The position numbers and the translations under genes were made by a program. A DNA stretch of 42,834 bases from IMG/VR virus record IMGVR_UViG_3300025098_000100, positions 1 to 42,834 of that record; one strand, 5' to 3'. Positions 5,621 through 24,798 of the stretch are shown here, one piece after another. Under the pieces are notes generated by a model. It did not search any database. It was not told the DNA's origin and was given only the letters and a program-made list of their open reading frames with translations. Every line of letters starts with the position of its first letter. The stretch's first letter is position 1. The stretch comes from a virus.

Positions 5621-5890
5621 CTATTTATATTTTTCTGCTAGTGCTTCATTCATTCTTTTAAGATACCATTCTGCTTTCTTCATATCCTCTACACCATTAC
5701 CTTTGTATCTGTACCTGTGTTGATACTTAATCATGTTACCATGACAGTAAGATATGAACCCATCTAAACCAAGAACTTGTCGTATATAATCAATACATTC
5801 TATACCATCTTGGTTATAGTGTGCAGGACGTTCTACTGGATCAAATGTTTCTTGATCTTTCATTATGTGAAACTCCTTCCATTTAGCCAT
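5621..5890 (-). CDS. DUF3310 protein, copy A
   Basis: 89-residue member of the DUF3310 family (SaV-like phage proteins, sometimes loosely annotated as nucleotide kinase). The signature is complete: RPAHYNQDGIECIDYI, then GNMIKYQHRYRYKGN and EDMKKAEWYLKRM. The biochemical role of the family is not established; it occurs near nucleotide-metabolism genes in many phages. The start overlaps the stop of the gene before (TAATG). A second copy lies at 14559-14828 and is identical at 78 of 89 residues by my count, with the differences grouped at residues 8-15 and scattered elsewhere. Confidence 0.92.
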   Translation of the reverse strand: MAKWKEFHIMKDQETFDPVERPAHYNQDGIECIDYIRQVLGLDGFISYCHGNMIKYQHRYRYKGNGVEDMKKAEWYLKRMNEALAEKYK

Positions 5891-6336
5891 TATGTATTCA
5901 CCAACTCTGCTGATGTATATGGAATGTGAAAGAACAGTTCACCTTTTTGTATGTACCTACCCTTAGCTTCTGCTAAACTTTCTTGAGTTAACAATGTGTC
6001 TTTGATACGCCATACTTGTTTCATATCCTCACGGAATACATAGAAATTTAATACCCCATTTGTACCATCATACTTATCCAGTAAACGTTGCTTACGTTCT
6101 GGTATACGGATCTCAGACCAATGTGTAGGCCAATCTTCCTTCCAAGCTACTTTGACTTCAGCTTCATTGAAGTATGTATAGCCATCTTTCTGAGAGACAA
6201 CGTCTACGAAATAGTTCTCTTCGGTATTAACTATAGTATGTCCTTTTGATTCTAAGAGTTTAACCAAAGTATCTTTAGCTTTCTTATCGTAAGCTTGGTA
6301 CAATGCTCTGCTAAAGTTTTTTCTTACTGGTTTCAT
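5890..6336 (-). CDS. PD-(D/E)XK nuclease-like protein, 148 aa
   Basis: 148 residues with an arrangement typical of small PD-(D/E)XK-fold nucleases. A long N-terminal helix is followed by a strand with D45 (YFVDVV) and then a strand with E-V-K (NEAEVKVAWK, about residues 58-67). Downstream is a basic segment (IPERKQRLLDKY). This would make it a restriction-fold or resolvase-like DNA endonuclease, but I read only the core motif and cannot name the family. It overlaps the glutaredoxin gene by 26 bases and shares a TAATG junction with DUF3310, so it is part of a tightly coupled group after RNR. Confidence 0.8.
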   Translation of the reverse strand: MKPVRKNFSRALYQAYDKKAKDTLVKLLESKGHTIVNTEENYFVDVVSQKDGYTYFNEAEVKVAWKEDWPTHWSEIRIPERKQRLLDKYDGTNGVLNFYVFREDMKQVWRIKDTLLTQESLAEAKGRYIQKGELFFHIPYTSAELVNT

Positions 6337-14051: not shown

Positions 14052-14562
14052 TCTCCTTTAGTATATCAACAGCTTCTGACTCAGTTATATTAAACCACTC
14101 ACCATTATCTTGTTTACTCCAAGGTATATTCGCCTTACGTGCTGCAAGTATGTGTGCTGAACGCTCAGACTCACTGCGGTCTTTACAGTATACAGAGTGT
14201 ACCAACCTGTAGTTACGCATAGGTGAACTTGTTTGGTAGCTACTCAGCCTATCTTCTGCATCAATAGCCATACCTATCTTAATCCAATCAGGCCATGCAG
14301 AGTTACTAATTGCATACACATAACCTTCTTTGATTTGTTTATAGTTGTTAAGAGAACCAAAGGCTAGATCACCAAATGATTTGTAGTTACCTGCCTTGTG
14401 TAATGGGTGTGACTTAGGTATATACTTACCATTGACCCACATTCTTTGTGGGTTATTACGTGGGTTGTTTTTAGGATTTGTTAAGGCATTACTTCTACGC
14501 TTACACTCTTTGCATTTCTTACCTTCAACCTTCTCATGGTTACATACATTACATACAATCAT
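14038..14562 (-). CDS. GIY-YIG-type (T5orf172/MUG113-like) protein with zinc ribbon
   Basis: 174 residues. An N-terminal zinc ribbon (C4, C7, C17, C20) leads through a basic linker to a GIY-YIG-like domain: GYVYAI at 80-85, WIKIG at 93-97, R105, E133 and GEWF at 154-157. This is the pattern of the T5orf172/MUG113 group, which includes phage DNA endonucleases and homing-type enzymes. Possible roles are a free-standing homing endonuclease or a nuclease acting on host or rival DNA. It is wedged between DUF3310 copy B and thyX, overlapping thyX by 14 bases. Start chosen for a GGGGAG ribosome site. Confidence 0.85.
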   Translation of the reverse strand: MIVCNVCNHEKVEGKKCKECKRRSNALTNPKNNPRNNPQRMWVNGKYIPKSHPLHKAGNYKSFGDLAFGSLNNYKQIKEGYVYAISNSAWPDWIKIGMAIDAEDRLSSYQTSSPMRNYRLVHSVYCKDRSESERSAHILAARKANIPWSKQDNGEWFNITESEAVDILKEIAVD

Positions 14563-14828
14563 TTATGTTTCTCCCCTAATGCCTCATTCATTCTCTTAAC
14601 GTACCACTCAGCTTTCTTCATGTCCTCTACACCATTACCTTTGTAACGATACCGATGCTGATACTTGATCATGTTACCATGACAGTAGGCAATGAACCCA
14701 TCTGTGCCTAACACCTGACGTATATAATCAATACATTCTATACCATCTTGATTGTAATGTGCAGGTCGCTCAACAGGATCAAACACATGATGCTCTTTTA
14801 TTATCTCAAACTCTTTCCACTTAGCCAT
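14559..14828 (-). CDS. DUF3310 protein, copy B
   Basis: 89-residue second member of DUF3310 in the same genome, with the same RPAHYNQDGIECIDYI, GNMIKYQHRYRYKGN and EDMKKAEWY blocks as copy A at 5621-5890. I chose the ATG at 14828 (MAKWKEF) because it matches copy A exactly in length and overlaps the preceding stop in an ATGGCTAA junction; an upstream ATG at 14861 would only add 11 residues without similarity. Eleven differences from copy A mean the duplication is not brand new. Function of the family is unknown. Confidence 0.92.
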   Translation of the reverse strand: MAKWKEFEIIKEHHVFDPVERPAHYNQDGIECIDYIRQVLGTDGFIAYCHGNMIKYQHRYRYKGNGVEDMKKAEWYVKRMNEALGEKHK

Positions 14829-15030
14829 TATTATTAATCTCCTGTTGTTCATCAAAGTCATTTGCCAATTCTACGAAGGCATCTGCCAGTGAGTTATGTT
14901 TATTTACTAGATCATATACATCACGTAATACATTCTCAAGTAATGCTCTTTGTCTATTCTGTTCCCAGAGATTGAACGCAAGTATTGCAACCAACCCCAG
15001 TAACGATACATCTAACCACGTTATCAACAT
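14821..15030 (-). CDS. Small membrane-anchored protein, 69 aa
   Basis: 69 residues: an N-terminal hydrophobic helix (about residues 4-20, VSLLGLVAILAF) followed by a charged helical segment likely to form a coiled coil (about 24-60). The topology looks like a spanin-like or Rz-like small anchor, but its place right after the helicase gene (7-base overlap) and far from the lysis genes argues against a lysis role. Its partner is unknown. An 8-base overlap joins it to DUF3310 copy B. Confidence 0.75.
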   Translation of the reverse strand: MLITWLDVSLLGLVAILAFNLWEQNRQRALLENVLRDVYDLVNKHNSLADAFVELANDFDEQQEINNNG

Positions 15031-19411: not shown

Positions 19412-20517
19412 TGTAAAACTCCTTTCAATATGTGTGCTATCACGTCTACAGTCCACCCATTACCGAGCATCTTGTAACGCTGTGTGTTTGATACACCTTC
19501 AGTGTACCCATCTGGTATTGTTTGTAAGCGTTCACATTCTAATGGTGTTAGCTTACGCCAAGACATATCCTCAATCAAGATACTGTCCTTAGTTACTGTG
19601 GTCAAACAATTAGTCTTATCATCTTCTCTAACTTCAATCATCTGTTTAATTGGTATAGATGTGTCATAGTCTTTACGAGTACCATTAGCATCTAGTCTAC
19701 GCCCAACCATACGTCCACCCTTCACCAATACTTTAGGCTCTAAGTTACCACCACTTGAGGCACACAGACTAGGTGCTTTACCTTCGGCTGCATACACCCT
19801 TCGTACATATCCGTGACCCTTCAAGTCAGCGTCACCTACATGACACATCTGATCATCACTGAATACCAACTGTCTGCGATGCTTCTCAAAGTATGACTTG
19901 AGATTACCACCTTTGAAGTAGTTAGCATCAAGACAATGTGACTTAGTTCTGTCAGTCAAACCATCTTCGAGTATATCTTTCAATACTATACCTTTGTCTT
20001 CTGGCTGTTGAATACCTTCGATGTTAGTCCAATAGAAACGTTTCCTATTCTGTGCAGACACTAGCGCACTGTTGATTAGGTACTTGTTTACATTAGGCAA
20101 TGCTTGCTCAGTATGGTACGTGATGTACTCCTCAAAAGCATTCGACATTCTAACATTCTCCATTAGGTACTTAGCATTAGGGTTATGCTCTAGCACATGT
20201 TGCATGATGTCTAGTACTACCCAAAACAATTGACCTCGTGGATCACGATCACCTTGCTGTTGACCTGCAACTGACCATGCCTGACAAGGGAAACCTGCTG
20301 TAACTAGATCAACTTTAGACCAATCAATATCCCATGATCTCCACTCAGTCATATCACCTACTTGTATAGTGTTAGGATAATTTTTCTGGGTAATTTTAAT
20401 AGCATGTGGGTCTATCTCACTAGCTATATACGTATCAGCTACCATACCTATTCTTTCACCTGCTATCTGACCACCTGATAAGCCATCACATAGGGATAAT
20501 TGTGTTCTAATCTTCAT
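19408..20517 (-). CDS. dcm: DNA (cytosine-5) methyltransferase
   Basis: 369 residues with all C5-MTase motifs: motif I LSLCDGLSGGQIA (SAM site, 7-19), motif IV GFPCQAWS with catalytic C78, motif VI MENV (119-122), motif VIII QNRKRF, and motif X near the C-terminus (LGNGWTVDVIAHIL). The stretch between VIII and IX is the target recognition region, sequence specificity not readable. No partner restriction enzyme is encoded nearby, so it is an orphan enzyme likely to mask phage DNA from host restriction or to regulate expression. Coupled to genes on both sides (11-base and 4-base overlaps). Confidence 0.96.
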   Translation of the reverse strand: MKIRTQLSLCDGLSGGQIAGERIGMVADTYIASEIDPHAIKITQKNYPNTIQVGDMTEWRSWDIDWSKVDLVTAGFPCQAWSVAGQQQGDRDPRGQLFWVVLDIMQHVLEHNPNAKYLMENVRMSNAFEEYITYHTEQALPNVNKYLINSALVSAQNRKRFYWTNIEGIQQPEDKGIVLKDILEDGLTDRTKSHCLDANYFKGGNLKSYFEKHRRQLVFSDDQMCHVGDADLKGHGYVRRVYAAEGKAPSLCASSGGNLEPKVLVKGGRMVGRRLDANGTRKDYDTSIPIKQMIEVREDDKTNCLTTVTKDSILIEDMSWRKLTPLECERLQTIPDGYTEGVSNTQRYKMLGNGWTVDVIAHILKGVLQ

Positions 20518-20815
20518 TGTTATATTCCTTTACAAATTGTTGTAGCTCTTCAAAGCTATCTGTACTACACAGCCATGAATGATCATCTGATTCACCATTG
20601 TAGGTGCTTGCCAATTGAACTATGAAACGTGTAAGCATACCCCAATCTGTACCCCAAATGTTTTTTGCATCAGCCTCACGCACATTTGCATCATGGCTGC
20701 CCATCCATATGTGTAGACCATTTACTTGATAGCTTGGTAGTTCATCATTATTGTAGGTTGTACACTTCCATTCTTTTGGTATATCTAAATCAACTAAGTA
20801 TGTATTCCAATGCAT
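20507..20815 (-). CDS. Hypothetical protein, 102 aa
   Basis: 102 residues, acidic, rich in Trp (W3, W16, W37 and others), strand-like in the first half, unrecognised. It heads a coupled group with the methyltransferase (11-base overlap). Its AAAGGA ribosome site is preceded by palindrome copy 1 at 20837-20852, which also overlaps the stop codon of the gene before. It may be controlled with the methyltransferase through that palindrome. Function unknown. Confidence 0.75.
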   Translation of the reverse strand: MHWNTYLVDLDIPKEWKCTTYNNDELPSYQVNGLHIWMGSHDANVREADAKNIWGTDWGMLTRFIVQLASTYNGESDDHSWLCSTDSFEELQQFVKEYNNED

Positions 20816-20836: not shown

Positions 20837-20852
20837 AGTCCAACATTGGACT
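20837..20852. repeat. 16-bp palindrome, copy 1
   Basis: AGTCCAACATTGGACT, 7-base arms around a 2-base centre. It lies between the stop of the 78-aa gene, whose TAA shares a base with it, and the AAAGGA site of the next gene, 7 bases away. Confidence 0.85.
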
Positions 20853-21088
20853 TATTGAATTGATGGTGGGGTTTCACTTATGTATCCCCATGATGAGTAT
20901 ACCTCATGTACTCTCTCACTACAATCGACAAACTCAACTTGTGAATCAGGTTTGCTACGCATCATCATATGAATAGCAAACTCCGAAGCTGTACGCCAGT
21001 CACTGACAGAAGGATACGTATCATCTAACTTAACGATAGTATTCTCACTGTCAATGGCTAACGTGACTTCATATGCCATAACAGGCAT
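20852..21088 (-). CDS. Hypothetical protein, 78 aa
   Basis: 78 residues, unrecognised. A strand-rich start (MAYEVTLAIDSENTIV) leads to a helix with four consecutive Met/His-rich positions (FAIHMMMRS) and a polar tail. An alternative start at the second Met would remove three residues. The stop codon merges with palindrome copy 1. It follows the 79-aa gene by three bases. No function can be proposed. Confidence 0.68.
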   Translation of the reverse strand: MPVMAYEVTLAIDSENTIVKLDDTYPSVSDWRTASEFAIHMMMRSKPDSQVEFVDCSERVHEVYSSWGYISETPPSIQ

Positions 21089-21091
21089 ACG

Positions 21092-21331
21092 TTACTCGTC
21101 CTCAGTTTTGAATGCAAACTTTAGTGAATACCAAGCTGACTCAATCTTACCTATGTCTGACATGTATAGATCATGTGCTTCTGTAGCCATAGAATATGTG
21201 TTACTCAAAACATCTTGAGCTTCTTTGATAGCTTCACGCTGTTCCTTAGACATACTAGCCAATAACTTTTTATTTACCTTATACCTAGCCATACGTTCAG
21301 CTTTCCACTGTGCTTGTGTTTTATTTGACAT
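21092..21331 (-). CDS. Hypothetical helical protein, 79 aa
   Basis: 79 residues, mostly helical and basic at the N-terminus (NKTQAQWKAERMARYKVNKKLLA), ending FAFKTEDE. Start at 21331 chosen over 21373 because GGAGGCG lies 7-8 bases upstream and the ATG follows the preceding stop by five bases. The basic N-terminal helix could contact nucleic acid, but no family is recognised. Confidence 0.72.
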   Translation of the reverse strand: MSNKTQAQWKAERMARYKVNKKLLASMSKEQREAIKEAQDVLSNTYSMATEAHDLYMSDIGKIESAWYSLKFAFKTEDE

Positions 21332-21336
21332 TGTTA

Positions 21337-21663
21337 TTACGCCTCCAATTGTTGTTTGATATCTGCCAACCAAGTGACAAGCATCTTTTGTTGTGTCTTC
21401 AATGTAGCACGCTTAGTAGTGTACTTGCTACCTATTAAACCCACAGATTGTAGTACTTGTACCCTATATACGATACGATTAGGATATTCGTTTAAGTCAG
21501 ATGCAATCTGTTTTATAGTAGACACTCTCCAGTTTTGTAGAATGTAATCATCAACAGACGCATAGTTGTAGGTATGAATACCTGCTTTTGACATGTGTGC
21601 TGTGTGCTTCACATATAGTTCTGGGTTAGTGTTCTTTACTAGTGGTTTTGAAATAGTAGTCAT
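21337..21663 (-). CDS. Winged-HTH-like DNA-binding protein, 108 aa
   Basis: 108 residues. The middle segment (about 46-78) STIKQIASDLNEYPNRIV followed by YRVQVLQSVGLI reads as a helix-turn-helix with a following wing, the arrangement of small transcription regulators (trigger IKQIASDL, recognition helix NRIVYRVQVL). It has a GGAGCT ribosome site. It is the only clear HTH protein among the early leftward genes, so it is a candidate to bind the palindromes in this region. That link is inference. No oligomerisation domain is obvious; the C-terminus is helical. Confidence 0.72.
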   Translation of the reverse strand: MTTISKPLVKNTNPELYVKHTAHMSKAGIHTYNYASVDDYILQNWRVSTIKQIASDLNEYPNRIVYRVQVLQSVGLIGSKYTTKRATLKTQQKMLVTWLADIKQQLEA

Positions 21664-21677
21664 TTTATGTTAGCTCC

Positions 21678-21851
21678 TTATGCTATACGTTTTGGTTTAT
21701 AATCTGTTATGCCTCTTTGCATATTAGTTTTAATCTTACGTGCTGTTGAACGCTCACGCTTCCAATCATCACGCTTAGGCTTCTTCTTCTTCTTAGTTAG
21801 TCCAACATTGGACTTAGTGAACTTAATAAAGTTCTTCATAGTATATTGCAT
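21678..21851 (-). CDS. Small very basic protein, 57 aa, containing a palindrome copy
   Basis: 57 residues with 19 or so Lys/Arg, including five consecutive Lys at 20-24, and ending YKPKRIA. Likely to bind nucleic acid. The frame starts just after the HhH-GPD-like gene (GGGAGG ribosome site, ATG at 21851; an ATG four codons later is possible). Palindrome copy 2 lies inside the frame and is translated as part of KSNVGLT. Whether the repeat entered a pre-existing gene or a gene formed around it is unclear. Unrecognised. Confidence 0.65.
   Translation of the reverse strand: MQYTMKNFIKFTKSNVGLTKKKKKPKRDDWKRERSTARKIKTNMQRGITDYKPKRIA
21799..21814. repeat. 16-bp palindrome, copy 2 (inside an ORF)
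   Basis: AGTCCAACATTGGACT, identical to copies 1, 4 and 5, but inside the frame of the 57-aa gene and not in front of a ribosome site. Confidence 0.85.
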
Positions 21852-21858
21852 TCATACA

Positions 21859-22479
21859 TTACCTCCCATATGTTATACATTCTACATGAAATTTAGATAC
21901 GACATTGGCTGTAGTAAGCTTACGATTAGCTTTGTTACCTGCAACATATTCGCACCATGTATTCCACCAATACTTTGAACCTGCACGTTGGGTAAGCACT
22001 ATGTACTCTTCAACCTTGCGACGTGCAGTCTCTGGCTTCATAGCCTTTGGTGGTGTCTTTACAGTGTTGGGGTTTATACCTAGTCGCTTGACATTGTGGC
22101 TATCAATACAAGCTACGTTGAAACCTAGACATTGTGCAAGGAAAGATGCCTTGACCATACCCAAGTTAGGTACTTGCATAAATAACTCAACAACATCAGC
22201 ACAAGCCTCAACACTGTTGTAACCTTTTGCATCTGCAATCTTGTACATTTCACTACGTAGGTAGTCACCATGCTTGATAAGGTACTTGTAACCTTCATCT
22301 TTTTTGCCCCATAAACAATTGGCTTTTATACCATCTATGCTTACTTTTTCCATGCTACCTTTTACTGTGGATAAACCTGCTTGTATCGTTAGCAATACAA
22401 ACAAGCCAGTGTTTACAAATGCATCTGTACCGCCCCAACGGACAAATGATTTGATTTCTTTTACATCACGACTATACAT
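21859..22479 (-). CDS. HhH-GPD-like protein (possible DNA glycosylase)
   Basis: 206 residues. Residues 103-131 (VPNLGMVKASFLAQCLG followed by ACIDSHNVKRLG) resemble the helix-hairpin-helix and catalytic-Asp segment of endonuclease III-type glycosylases (LPGVGRKTA...VDTH..R), with D126 in the catalytic Asp position and K110 one residue off the usual Lys. There is no C-terminal four-Cys iron-sulfur loop. A base-excision or modified-base role is possible but unproven. I chose the start at 22479 because it forms TAATG with the stop of the gene before and has GAGGAA upstream; the longer frame from 22509 would overlap that gene. Confidence 0.72.
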   Translation of the reverse strand: MYSRDVKEIKSFVRWGGTDAFVNTGLFVLLTIQAGLSTVKGSMEKVSIDGIKANCLWGKKDEGYKYLIKHGDYLRSEMYKIADAKGYNSVEACADVVELFMQVPNLGMVKASFLAQCLGFNVACIDSHNVKRLGINPNTVKTPPKAMKPETARRKVEEYIVLTQRAGSKYWWNTWCEYVAGNKANRKLTTANVVSKFHVECITYGR

Positions 22480-22727
22480 TACTGTGTTTCCTCTGCACAT
22501 TCTGGGCATGTGTCAACCATACCATCTGTTTCTTCTTTTATAAAATCACAATCATCACAATCATTACAATTATCTGCGATGAAATTATTTATCATCATGA
22601 TTGAAACTATTGCTTCAACTGTATCACCTTTACCTTTAGGTGCTTCAATAAACTTTACTATGTTGCTTATCATTGCAGGTATCTGATCAACTGAATCAGG
22701 AGTGTTGAACATGTTATTCTTTTTCAT
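22479..22727 (-). CDS. Cys-rich small protein, probable zinc binder, 82 aa
   Basis: 82 residues, helical N-terminal part, then a Cys-rich acidic tail: C54-x2-C57-x2-C60 and, near the end, C-P-E-C. The spacing suggests a zinc site formed from the two clusters. It follows promoter module A and palindrome copy 3, with an AAAAGGA ribosome site, and is coupled to the HhH-GPD-like gene. Unrecognised; a regulator or cofactor for its neighbour is possible. Confidence 0.75.
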   Translation of the reverse strand: MKKNNMFNTPDSVDQIPAMISNIVKFIEAPKGKGDTVEAIVSIMMINNFIADNCNDCDDCDFIKEETDGMVDTCPECAEETQ

Positions 22728-22750
22728 TGTATGTAATCCTTTTTATGTGA

Positions 22751-22766
22751 AGTCCAACGTTGGACT
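22751..22766. repeat. 16-bp palindrome, copy 3 (fully symmetric)
   Basis: AGTCCAACGTTGGACT is a perfect self-complementary 16-mer, 24 bases upstream of the ATG at 22727 and just before its AAAAGGA site. It also lies about 2 bases beyond the conserved 3' end of promoter module A. Confidence 0.88.
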
Positions 22767-22767
22767 A

Positions 22768-22833
22768 GTTCCGATGCTTAACAACAAATCAGATAATCAA
22801 CCTGTTGTCAAGCACTATTTTACTACGTAGTAG
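22768..22833 (-). promoter_or_regulatory. Promoter/operator module A
   Basis: On the minus strand: palindrome TACTACGTAGTA (22821-22832), 9 bases, a perfect -35 TTGACA (22806-22811), then the shared element TTATCTGAT and a shared GCATCGGAAC end. The -10 at 17-base spacing is poor (TTTGTT), so activation may be needed. Blocks and spacing match module B without gaps (46 of 66 bases identical by my count). It faces the Cys-rich gene and everything downstream. Confidence 0.68.
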
Positions 22834-22838
22834 TAGTG

Positions 22839-23036
22839 TTATGATTTGCTGTAGGTTCTCCAACCTGAGTCACTCACAAACTCTACTACATTATTTTTGT
22901 TGTCATACACTACATCGACAACAGGTGAAGCACACTTACGCTGTAGCTCAATACGTGCTCGCAGCCGAGCTATGCGATCCGCACGACTAGGCTTTTGCAT
23001 GGTGTACTGTGTGCTTGTATGCAATTTAAATTTCAT
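22839..23036 (-). CDS. Small basic protein, 65 aa
   Basis: 65 residues. An Arg-rich helix (SRADRIARLRARIELQRK, about 18-35) is followed by two strand-like segments ending WRTYSKS. Start at 23036 (MKFKL) chosen because it overlaps the stop of the gene before as ATGA. The C-terminal part VVDVVYDNKNNVVEFVSDSGW resembles a small beta hairpin. Unrecognised, possibly nucleic-acid binding. It is the last gene before promoter module A. Confidence 0.7.
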   Translation of the reverse strand: MKFKLHTSTQYTMQKPSRADRIARLRARIELQRKCASPVVDVVYDNKNNVVEFVSDSGWRTYSKS

Positions 23037-23263
23037 TCTACACAATACCTCGACACTGTTGCATGCAATTGCATATCAATCTTGTTACCATAAAACCTGA
23101 CCCACGTGCGGTCTACACTAGCGTCAACTAGTTCCATAGCATTACTTTCATCTGTTTTTAAGTCTTCGACTTCCCACATAGCTTGCTTAACAGCTTTCTT
23201 CATACTTGAAAACATACCAACCAATCCATCTGCAGGTGTATCTACCTTATAAACATACTTCAT
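23033..23263 (-). CDS. Hypothetical protein, 76 aa
   Basis: 76 residues, alpha/beta, unrecognised: strand (MKYVYKVDT), helix (SSMKKAVKQAMWEVEDL), strands (VDRTWVRFYGNKIDMQLHAT). The start follows AAAGG, with palindrome copy 4 a further 10 bases upstream. It is coupled to the next gene by ATGA. The compact strand-helix-strand layout is like several small early phage proteins, but no specific match is recognised. Confidence 0.72.
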   Translation of the reverse strand: MKYVYKVDTPADGLVGMFSSMKKAVKQAMWEVEDLKTDESNAMELVDASVDRTWVRFYGNKIDMQLHATVSRYCVE

Positions 23264-23286
23264 TTTATTAACCTTTCACAATATTA

Positions 23287-23302
23287 AGTCCAACATTGGA
23301 CT
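23287..23302. repeat. 16-bp palindrome, copy 4 (contains a stop codon)
   Basis: AGTCCAACATTGGACT. On the minus strand the TAG stop of the 78-aa gene overlaps its first two bases; the AAAGG site of the next gene starts 10 bases after it. Confidence 0.87.
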
Positions 23303-23537
23303 AAGATTTCAATATCTGTTTCAAATACGACATTGCATTGTCGTGTATTTCCCACGTGTACCCAAGCTCCTCAATCAATTTGAGTGTGGCAAAGGTAAGC
23401 GTAGTAGTACCTGCAATGTGAGCAAACCGCTTGGCATTCTCACATATGGGGTATATCTTCTGCCTACCATACACATCACGCACTTCAATCTTGATAACTT
23501 TAAACATGTTATCAGCATCTTTATGGTCACTTAGCAT
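23301..23537 (-). CDS. Hypothetical protein, 78 aa
   Basis: 78 residues, unrecognised alpha/beta protein containing KVIKIEVRDVYGRQKIYP, then CENAKRFAHIAG and a C-terminal helix. The start at 23537 (MLSDHKD) forms TAATG with the gene before and is preferred to the upstream ATG at 23552. Its stop codon lies within palindrome copy 4. It belongs to a three-gene coupled group beginning with the 44-aa membrane protein. Confidence 0.72.
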   Translation of the reverse strand: MLSDHKDADNMFKVIKIEVRDVYGRQKIYPICENAKRFAHIAGTTTLTFATLKLIEELGYTWEIHDNAMSYLKQILKS

Positions 23538-23764
23538 TATACAATACCCCAACTTATAACTGCATCACCATTGTCTGGATTTACCCAAACATCGTAGCCA
23601 TACTCACGCAATTGTGCCACATCTACAGAATTAGTTTTGTGTGATGAAACACTCAAAGCATTTCTGCCTTCACTTATAGCAAGTTCTAATACGTCTTTAA
23701 GATACTTAGTTCTTTTTTCAAACGCAATTGTTACAGCCTTATCAGCATTGATTACTTTAATCAT
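23537..23764 (-). CDS. Hypothetical protein, 75 aa
   Basis: 75 residues, unrecognised. A helix (EKRTKYLKDVLELAISEG) is flanked by strands and followed by LREYGYDVWVNPDNGDAVISW, which suggests a small alpha/beta sandwich. The ribosome site GAAAGG overlaps the end of the membrane-protein gene 4 bases upstream. No function known. Confidence 0.72.
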   Translation of the reverse strand: MIKVINADKAVTIAFEKRTKYLKDVLELAISEGRNALSVSSHKTNSVDVAQLREYGYDVWVNPDNGDAVISWGIV

Positions 23765-23768
23765 TGTA

Positions 23769-23903
23769 TTAACCTTTCAATAAAAATGGTAGAAATAAAG
23801 CACTACCCAAAATAAAACCCATCATTGCACCCATGATTGTGTGCTTGAATGCTTCACGTAGCTGTTCTTGACGCTTACGTTGCCTTGATGTTCTGTATGC
23901 CAT
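23769..23903 (-). CDS. Small membrane protein, 44 aa
   Basis: 44 residues: a basic start (MAYRTSRQRKRQEQLREAFK) and one hydrophobic segment (about 22-42, IMGAMMGFILGSALFLPFLL). A good AAAGGA ribosome site precedes the ATG, and palindrome copy 5 lies 10 bases before that. It leads a coupled group of three genes. Same design as the 58-aa protein at 19029-19205 (positive N-terminus then one membrane helix), but the sequences are not alike. Function unknown. Confidence 0.75.
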   Translation of the reverse strand: MAYRTSRQRKRQEQLREAFKHTIMGAMMGFILGSALFLPFLLKG

Positions 23904-23927
23904 TTGACATTTCCTTTCACGATTGTA

Positions 23928-23943
23928 AGTCCAACATTGGACT
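23928..23943. repeat. 16-bp palindrome, copy 5
   Basis: AGTCCAACATTGGACT, 25 bases before the ATG of the 44-aa membrane protein and 10 bases before its AAAGGA site; it lies in the gap after the 218-aa gene. Confidence 0.87.
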
Positions 23944-24008
23944 AGTTAACTTATAAAGTTACACCTAGCTAGGGAGAGAGCCAGATGTAACCTATAAGTA
24001 AACTTATA

Positions 24009-24665
24009 TTATGAAGCTTTACTGTGGCGGATTGCTTCAGCAACTGCACTCTGTGCATCTGCCTCAATCGCATCAGCTTCTCTTAGAAGCATCTCTGCAA
24101 TGTCCATGATGTCCACACCACTGTCATTACAAACCTTGATTAGTTGTTTAAAGATTTCATCTTTACTAAGCTCAACTGGACGTTGTTTAGCTTCGCTAGT
24201 TTTAGGTGATGCATCAGCCTTTGGCTTGTCTTTTGTTGATGCTTTATCATCAGTAGATGATGATGCTTGCTTGTTGGCTTTTGACATTGCACTTTGCAAT
24301 GCTGTAAGTGATGTGAAGCCTTTTTTGCTTTTAGCAATAAACTCACGACATTCAACTTCGTTTTCAACGAACCATTTAGCTTCGCTACGTCTTCTCTTAT
24401 CAACTATGTTGATGCCACAATCAGCAAGTCTAGTTGACTTGATACGACCACTGTCAGTTTCACTGGTAAGAAGTACCATCAAGTGACCTAAAACAGTGTC
24501 AAAACCATCTGCTTTTGTGTGTTCTTTGAACTCACCTGTTTCAAACTTTGTTTTCTTAGCTTTGATTAATTTGTATCTACGAGCTAGGTCTGCACCGATA
24601 AGCTCTGGTGTGTTCAAGACCGCTTTGTTTGTGTCAGTGTTAGCGTTGTTTGCAGAATGTGTCAT
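24009..24665 (-). CDS. First gene of the leftward operon, 218 aa, unknown
   Basis: 218 residues, unrecognised. An N-terminal alpha/beta part (about 20-125) carries basic patches (ARRYKLIKAKKTKFE, VDKRRRSEAKW). A low-complexity Ser/Lys/Asp/Ala linker follows (about 130-165), then an acidic helical C-terminus. First position, 38 bases or so downstream of promoter module B, is typical of an early regulator or host-takeover protein, and the basic patches would allow DNA or RNA contact, but no HTH is visible. Ribosome site is weak (AGGAAAT). Confidence 0.8.
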   Translation of the reverse strand: MTHSANNANTDTNKAVLNTPELIGADLARRYKLIKAKKTKFETGEFKEHTKADGFDTVLGHLMVLLTSETDSGRIKSTRLADCGINIVDKRRRSEAKWFVENEVECREFIAKSKKGFTSLTALQSAMSKANKQASSSTDDKASTKDKPKADASPKTSEAKQRPVELSKDEIFKQLIKVCNDSGVDIMDIAEMLLREADAIEADAQSAVAEAIRHSKAS

Positions 24666-24700
24666 AATAAATTTCCTATTTTGTTTGTGGCAAGTTCGCC

Positions 24701-24766
24701 GTTTCGATGCAATCAGTTAGATCAGATAAATCCGATGGTGTCAACACCTATTTTACTACGTAGTAG
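24701..24766 (-). promoter_or_regulatory. Promoter/operator module B, start of the leftward operon
   Basis: On the minus strand: palindrome TACTACGTAGTA (24754-24765), 9 bases, -35 TTGACA (24739-24744), 17 bases, -10 TCTAAC (24716-24721), with TTATCTGAT in the spacer and GCATCGAAAC just past the -10. Same element order and distances as module A. It faces the 218-aa gene and is the likely main early leftward promoter, with the palindrome as operator or activator site. Confidence 0.75.
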
Positions 24767-24782
24767 TATATGTAGCAAATTA

Positions 24783-24798
24783 AGTCCAATGTGGGACT
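24783..24798. repeat. 16-bp palindrome, copy 6 (imperfect)
   Basis: AGTCCAATGTGGGACT; one arm pair is mismatched relative to the other copies. It lies 17 bases upstream of the TACTACGTAGTA element of module B, so it is placed as an upstream operator and not before a ribosome site. Confidence 0.7.

Follow-up and report, generated by a model that had tools for sequence, protein, structure and literature searches.

Dispersed palindromes in the early operon of HMO-2011-type phages and a first-gene protein that probably reads them

Short sequences repeated along an operon or a genome have been described in several groups of phages. The stoperators of the cluster A mycobacteriophages such as L5 and Bxb1 are asymmetric and number 20–30 (PMC6550527). 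In cluster K, the extended start-associated sequences (ESAS) are imperfect 17-base-pair (bp) repeats with a variable spacer, situated beside a 13-bp start-associated sequence (SAS) that overlaps the ribosome site, and no binder was named for them (PMC3203893). Cluster O, with Corndog, has over 30 copies of 17-bp palindromes scattered across the genome, with no meaningful orientation, no named binder and no integrase (PMC4351075). Here we analyse an IMG/VR virus record (IMGVR_UViG_3300025098_000100), the whole 42,834 bp of which we call the window. Its early operon runs leftward on the minus strand from about 24.7 kilobases (kb) and carries a set of six 16-bp palindromes. Comparison with related sequences makes it likely that these palindromes are double-stranded DNA operators of the 218-amino-acid (aa) product of the operon's first gene (24009–24665, minus strand), a protein of an unannotated family.

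Each palindrome is built of 7-bp arms around a 2-nucleotide (nt) centre. The word AGTCCAA-N2-TTGGACT was found in six copies within 20837–24798, all assigned to the minus strand, five of them perfect and one with a single mismatch. When up to three mismatches were allowed, no further copies appeared in the 42,834 bp (12 strand-matches, corresponding to the six sites), and the same search in 100 shuffles gave a mean of 0.55 and a maximum of 2 matches, which rules out a chance origin of the set. Copy 1 (20837–20852, exact, AGTCCAATGTTGGACT) lies ahead of the ribosome site of gene 20507–20815, at a distance of 7 nt, and supplies the last stop-codon base of gene 20852–21088. Copy 2 (21799–21814, exact) is located within a 57-aa open reading frame (ORF; 21678–21851), where it codes for K-SNVG-L; the in-gene copies of relatives likewise code for SNVG. 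Copy 3 (22751–22766, CG centre) stands between a 48-nt repeat, here called D16, and the ribosome site of gene 22479–22727, whereas copy 4 (23287–23302, exact) precedes the ribosome site of gene 23033–23263 and overlaps the stop codon of ORF 23301–23552. Copy 5 (23928–23943, exact) follows the stop of the 218-aa gene by 66 nt and precedes the ribosome site of gene 23769–23903, and copy 6 (24783–24798, one mismatch) lies about 120 bp upstream of that first gene and upstream of another copy of D16. Not all members of the set are tied to start codons, as copy 2 is intragenic and copy 6 precedes the first gene. A preliminary description of this DNA had placed six copies at these positions and none elsewhere, with one CG centre and one imperfect copy, copies 1, 3, 4 and 5 situated 7–10 nt ahead of AAAGG, and stop codons built into copies 1 and 4; all of this was borne out, the stops of the preceding genes using palindrome bases.

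The window phage is akin to the HMO-2011-type phages CRP-345, CRP-1 and HMO-2011, as had been assumed at the outset: the primase, the integrase and the early genes match, and the replication and structural genes and the early-gene order of the group are shared. A search of such relatives had been proposed in the preliminary description. Relatives were fetched via the neighbouring 216-aa protein and via the 218-aa first-gene product, and each locus was scanned for repeated palindromes with no sequence preset. Each relative has a palindrome set that is near-uniform inside the genome and different between genomes, the sets of the GTCC class being AGTCCAA..TTGGACT, AGTCCGA..TCGGACT, CGTCCAA..TTGGACA, AGTCCRA..TTGGACC and GGTCCAA..TTGGACA. 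Sites of the form NGTCC-N6-GGACN are present in 96 of the 97 distinct loci encoding the 218-aa family, and the sole exception (L190, a remote homologue, E = 2e-4) has a set of its own, GTCGGAT-N-ATCCGAC. The usual count is 4–7 sites per about 6 kb, compared with 0.03 expected from base composition, and the 61 loci that extend 5 kb or more downstream have 3–9 sites per operon. The central step is pyrimidine-purine in 94% of 426 distinct sites. No such palindrome set was seen where the 218-aa protein is lacking, whether in kin of the 216-aa gene or in whole lineages; some loci scored as regulator-less are contigs that start past the regulator.

The pairing of protein and palindrome also extends to cultured phages. 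HMO-2011 gp74 is a member of the 218-aa family (E = 1.8e-47 after iteration), and the HMO-2011 genome carries five copies of AGTCCGACAGCGGACT, one of them reversed, with one copy upstream of gp74 and one just past it. The same pairing is found with gp01 of CRP-1 and CRP-345. The integrase was considered as a strict partner of the sites and was ruled out by CRP-2, CRP-603, CRP-207 and CRP-3, all of which have an integrase while the dispersed set is absent; the system therefore belongs to a subset of the group. In other HMO-2011 subgroups, which have no dispersed set, we noted three to four clustered palindromes with a spacing of about 30–45 bp upstream of the early operon (CRP-603, L204 4104–4213; L044 897–1000; L192 5690–5760), with the words TGTGATCACA and TAGTTTA-N4-TAAACTA. 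These clusters possibly belong to another regulator type or are iterons.

It is also evident that protein and site vary together. Positions 6 and 11 of the palindrome form a pair that is either A:T or G:C, and the agreement of this pair inside genomes was 0.92, against 0.66 (maximum 0.70) after permutation. The regulator column most associated with the operator type is residue 121. Of the 71 A:T loci, 68 have Thr at this position, and of the 14 G:C loci, 13 have Ser; HMO-2011 has Lys. The three A:T loci with Ser121 are members of the clade with mixed G6/T11 sites. The next-ranked columns (128, 125 and 127) all fall inside the predicted recognition helix, residues 120–136, encoded in the window at 24258–24308 (minus strand) with Thr121 at 24303–24305. 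Column 151 also scores because it is the relatives' in-gene operator itself, in which Asn and Asp codons switch together with operator type. On a tree built without the top columns, operator type changes 11 times and residue 121 likewise 11 times, and among 8 supported independent pairs 6–7 were concordant and none opposite (sign test, median p 0.016). The window itself (Thr, A:T) has as its nearest kin, at 90% identity, a locus (L068) with Ser and G:C. A change from Thr to Ser loses a methyl group, and a change from A:T to G:C loses the thymine methyl, which suggests a direct DNA contact; we infer that Thr121 packs against the thymine methyl of pair 6/11. The Ser121 clade with half-changed operators is a possible intermediate, and bears on how a regulator and its dispersed sites may change specificity jointly.

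Where an unrelated gene stands in place of the first gene, the palindrome is exchanged too. Three loci from more distant phages have neighbouring DNA that is about 95% identical, and their first genes have no detectable similarity to one another. At like positions they carry the palindromes TGTCACT-N-AGTGACA (L056), GTCTGAA-N-TTCAGAC (L057) and TGTAACG-N-CGTTACA (L058). L057 retains one palindrome of the L056 type, an orphan TGTCACTCAGTGACA at about 2911, beyond the apparent recombination boundary. Homology of these three first genes to the 218-aa protein was considered and was unsupported by hhalign. The TGTAACG set recurs in L210, whose counterpart of the L058 gene is 56% identical to it (L211, with too short a downstream stretch, was left out of this comparison), and the GTCGGAT-N-ATCCGAC set is kept in all fetched relatives of the L190 gene. 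The swap among the three loci, L210 and the kin of L190 together indicate that the word travels with the first gene in unrelated protein families. The balance is even for a broader proposal, namely that HMO-2011-type phages have an exchangeable specificity cassette in which unrelated first-gene DNA-binders each come with dispersed palindromes near gene starts, and that within one family a Thr/Ser change in the helix re-specifies all operators, giving immunity-like classes.

With regard to the protein, the 218 residues are predicted to form a helical domain (about 20–136), a disordered linker (138–163) and C-terminal helices (168–217). An AlphaFold2 model from a 20-homologue alignment is confident for the helical domain (mean predicted local distance difference test, pLDDT, 76; predicted template modelling score, pTM, 0.53), and this domain is predicted to bind DNA. 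The family has an invariant Arg-rich motif ahead of a Trp. No family was assigned to the protein in Pfam (curated cut-off), PHROG or the PDB sequence families; the best match in BFVD is S4S2E1, a 205-aa viral protein that is possibly HMO-2011 gp74. Together, co-occurrence and covariation support well the view that the 218-aa protein reads these sites, and the protein probably regulates the early operon much as in stoperator systems.

If so, a homodimer would sit on each 16-mer through a helix-turn-helix-like unit made of helices 103–112 and 120–136. The upstream site, together with the site in or just after the regulator gene, would serve autoregulation, possibly by looping or as a roadblock, and the sites 18–23 nt before the starts of later gene groups would block or tune elongation in stoperator fashion. 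Regulation of its own operon by the 218-aa protein, with repression, looping and a role in immunity, is less certain than binding as such. The purpose might be lysogeny, as the phage has an integrase, or only the shut-off of early genes.

Several observations weigh against operators read by the 218-aa protein. Foldseek returned no solved structure for the model at E ≤ 0.001, and because of this the helix-turn-helix assignment rests on the helix pattern and the covariation. Neighbouring proteins show some, weaker association with operator type through shared ancestry. A sigma-70 scan gave fewer matches than in shuffles and no strong promoter, and no relatives of the protein were found in bacterial genome contigs, which weakens the lysogeny version. 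Moreover, in the asymmetric classes the sites downstream of the regulator number 151 in sense and 7 in reversed orientation, and a symmetric dimer needs no orientation. The last observation speaks for the other option of the preliminary description, which had left the choice between operators for a dimeric regulator and RNA hairpins. The sites would then fold, next to ribosome sites, into hairpins of a 6-bp stem and a 4-base loop, and the first-gene product would bind translational operators or take part in nut-like antitermination after the logic of lambda N and boxB, where the first gene of the early operon likewise goes with allele-specific hairpins. An RNA function would also fit the distance from site end to start codon, which clusters at 18–23 nt, the invariant Arg-rich motif before the Trp, and the half-changed sites of one clade, in which G6/T11 (a G-U pair in RNA) occurs 12 times and A6/C11 twice. 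We nevertheless consider it unlikely, as 86 of the 507 counted sites are upstream of the regulator, in mixed orientation, and a further 79 lie inside its coding region, in the part encoding the linker; the outermost pair is unpaired throughout whole clades, and HMO-2011 has sites in both orientations. The correspondence of Thr/Ser with A:T/G:C, moreover, fits a contact with the thymine methyl group, which is absent from RNA. Orientation does not decide between DNA and RNA, because stoperators are also oriented. The predominance of pyrimidine-purine centres also speaks for DNA, as do the in-gene Asn and Asp codons that follow operator type. Of the two options, the DNA operator is the one we favour.

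Two further explanations concern the identity of the binder and the purpose of binding. Dispersed 16-bp palindromes near a binder gene resemble parS sets, and in relatives a conserved hairpin element, a potential origin, adjoins the regulator; the palindromes might then serve genome handling (replication, ParB/parS-type partition or condensation) and not gene regulation, their binder being a protein of the host or of the phage. This is improbable, given that the sites are restricted to the early operon and mostly head gene groups, that no ParA partner was seen among the window proteins scanned (part of the total), and that a host protein leaves the phage-specific, co-varying sites unexplained. 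Another protein of the operon might also read the sites, the first gene being merely linked to them. The preliminary description had suggested a 108-aa helix-turn-helix protein (21337–21663) for this role, and many site-bearing loci (42) do encode it. However, within the window clade it is 97–100% identical between phages with A:T and with G:C operators, HMO-2011 has sites and no detectable homologue of it, and its best column explains less of the operator type than that of the regulator. The suggestion therefore did not hold, and a binder of this kind is very hard to credit. The operator role of the palindromes, with the 218-aa protein as their reader, remains our preferred interpretation.

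The surroundings of the sites hold some further elements. D16 is kept in the window clade. Its upstream copy (24721–24768, minus strand) lies between operator copy 6 and the regulator gene and consists of the palindrome TACTACTACGTAGTA followed by TTGACA; it is a putative promoter region, weak by consensus scan. The second copy (22788–22835, minus strand), just upstream of operator copy 3, marks a putative internal promoter region. D16 is perhaps a promoter element of a second regulator. A long imperfect inverted repeat (AGTTTACTTATAGGTTACA...TGTAACTTTATAAGTTAACT; 23944–24005, minus strand), a possible terminator or processing hairpin, follows the regulator stop and precedes operator copy 5.

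A conserved stretch of about 90 nt, missing in the window clade, separates the upstream operator from the regulator in most relatives and has the layout AGTTT..hairpin..GCA..GAAACGRC..GCGCAGAGGAT (for example L200:3828–3918, L199:3946–4036, L201:4502–4592 and L018:260–350, with about 60 other loci). Of the loci fetched by its pattern, 63 had a callable regulator downstream, in each case after the block; the contigs of 7 others stop short of that region. Comparison of the stem in 39 sequences showed both sides changed in 9 of its 15 pairs, and G-U pairs were absent. This heavy covariation free of G-U pairs favours a hairpin or inverted repeat in DNA over an RNA element, for instance an origin or a recombination site. 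Rfam gave no match at gathering score for the block.

Among the other genes of the window, the tyrosine integrase (PF00589; 17017–18138, minus strand) lies downstream of the early operon on the same strand. The 216-aa protein (21859–22509, minus strand) is common across the group and has the motif VPNLGMVKASFLAQCLGFNVACIDSHN, which resembles HhH-GPD DNA glycosylases; it gave no Pfam match. The early operon also has a duplicated small gene, seen as 271-nt stretches at 5623–5893 and 14561–14831 that are 82% identical.

HMO-2011-type phages dominate the ocean, and many of them have an integrase. The main survey of the group reported integrases and the integration of CRP-3, with a repressor and palindromes unmentioned (PMC9038755). 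The present analysis offers for these phages a specific candidate regulator together with the complete set of its operators, and proposes a code that links residue and base; the six palindromes are very probably landing sites of a virus protein that had gone unrecognised before. If the exchangeable cassette is real, one of the commonest groups of ocean viruses would be divided into immunity-like classes. The repeats of clusters K and O were reported without a binder, and the same comparison of gene and palindrome covariation could find theirs.

The preliminary description had likened the palindromes to stoperators and start-associated sequences, and dispersed oriented sites and inverted repeats near starts justify the likeness. 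Like the lambda N/nut system, the locus has a first early-operon gene that goes with phage-specific short hairpins. Lambda N works at the RNA level with a single site on each transcript, whereas here the sites are many, some are upstream of the gene or in coding sequence, and the Thr/Ser code suggests DNA. With the cluster O palindromes the sites share a short, perfect form with a variable centre and a location both within genes and in the short gaps between them along a leftward operon, and they differ in copy number (>30 genome-wide there), orientation and integrase. As in the cluster K ESAS, they are inverted repeats near starts, the consensus is specific to subclusters and stop codons sometimes lie inside; no SAS is present here, the 13-bp core GGGATAGGAGCCC being absent from the contexts of the six window sites, and a binder is indicated. 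The position also differs from SAS and ESAS, as the sites mostly end 18–23 nt before the start, outside the ribosome site, and others are upstream or in coding sequence. As with the cluster A stoperators (PMC6550527), there are dispersed sites for what would be a phage regulator, with one near an early promoter and most in the operon, oriented with transcription, and a consensus that varies by subcluster together with the repressor. Unlike the asymmetric stoperators, the sites are 16-bp palindromes, fewer per operon and often just ahead of starts; unlike in cluster A, one site often lies inside the regulator's own coding linker and the early operon begins with the regulator gene. With regard to L5 gp71 (Rep), the Pfam and PHROG scans showed no homology to known repressors, and no direct comparison with Rep was made. 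The cluster A stoperators are the closest working analogue of the present system, which is yet not a member of that class, its sites being palindromic and its protein unrelated by the scans made.

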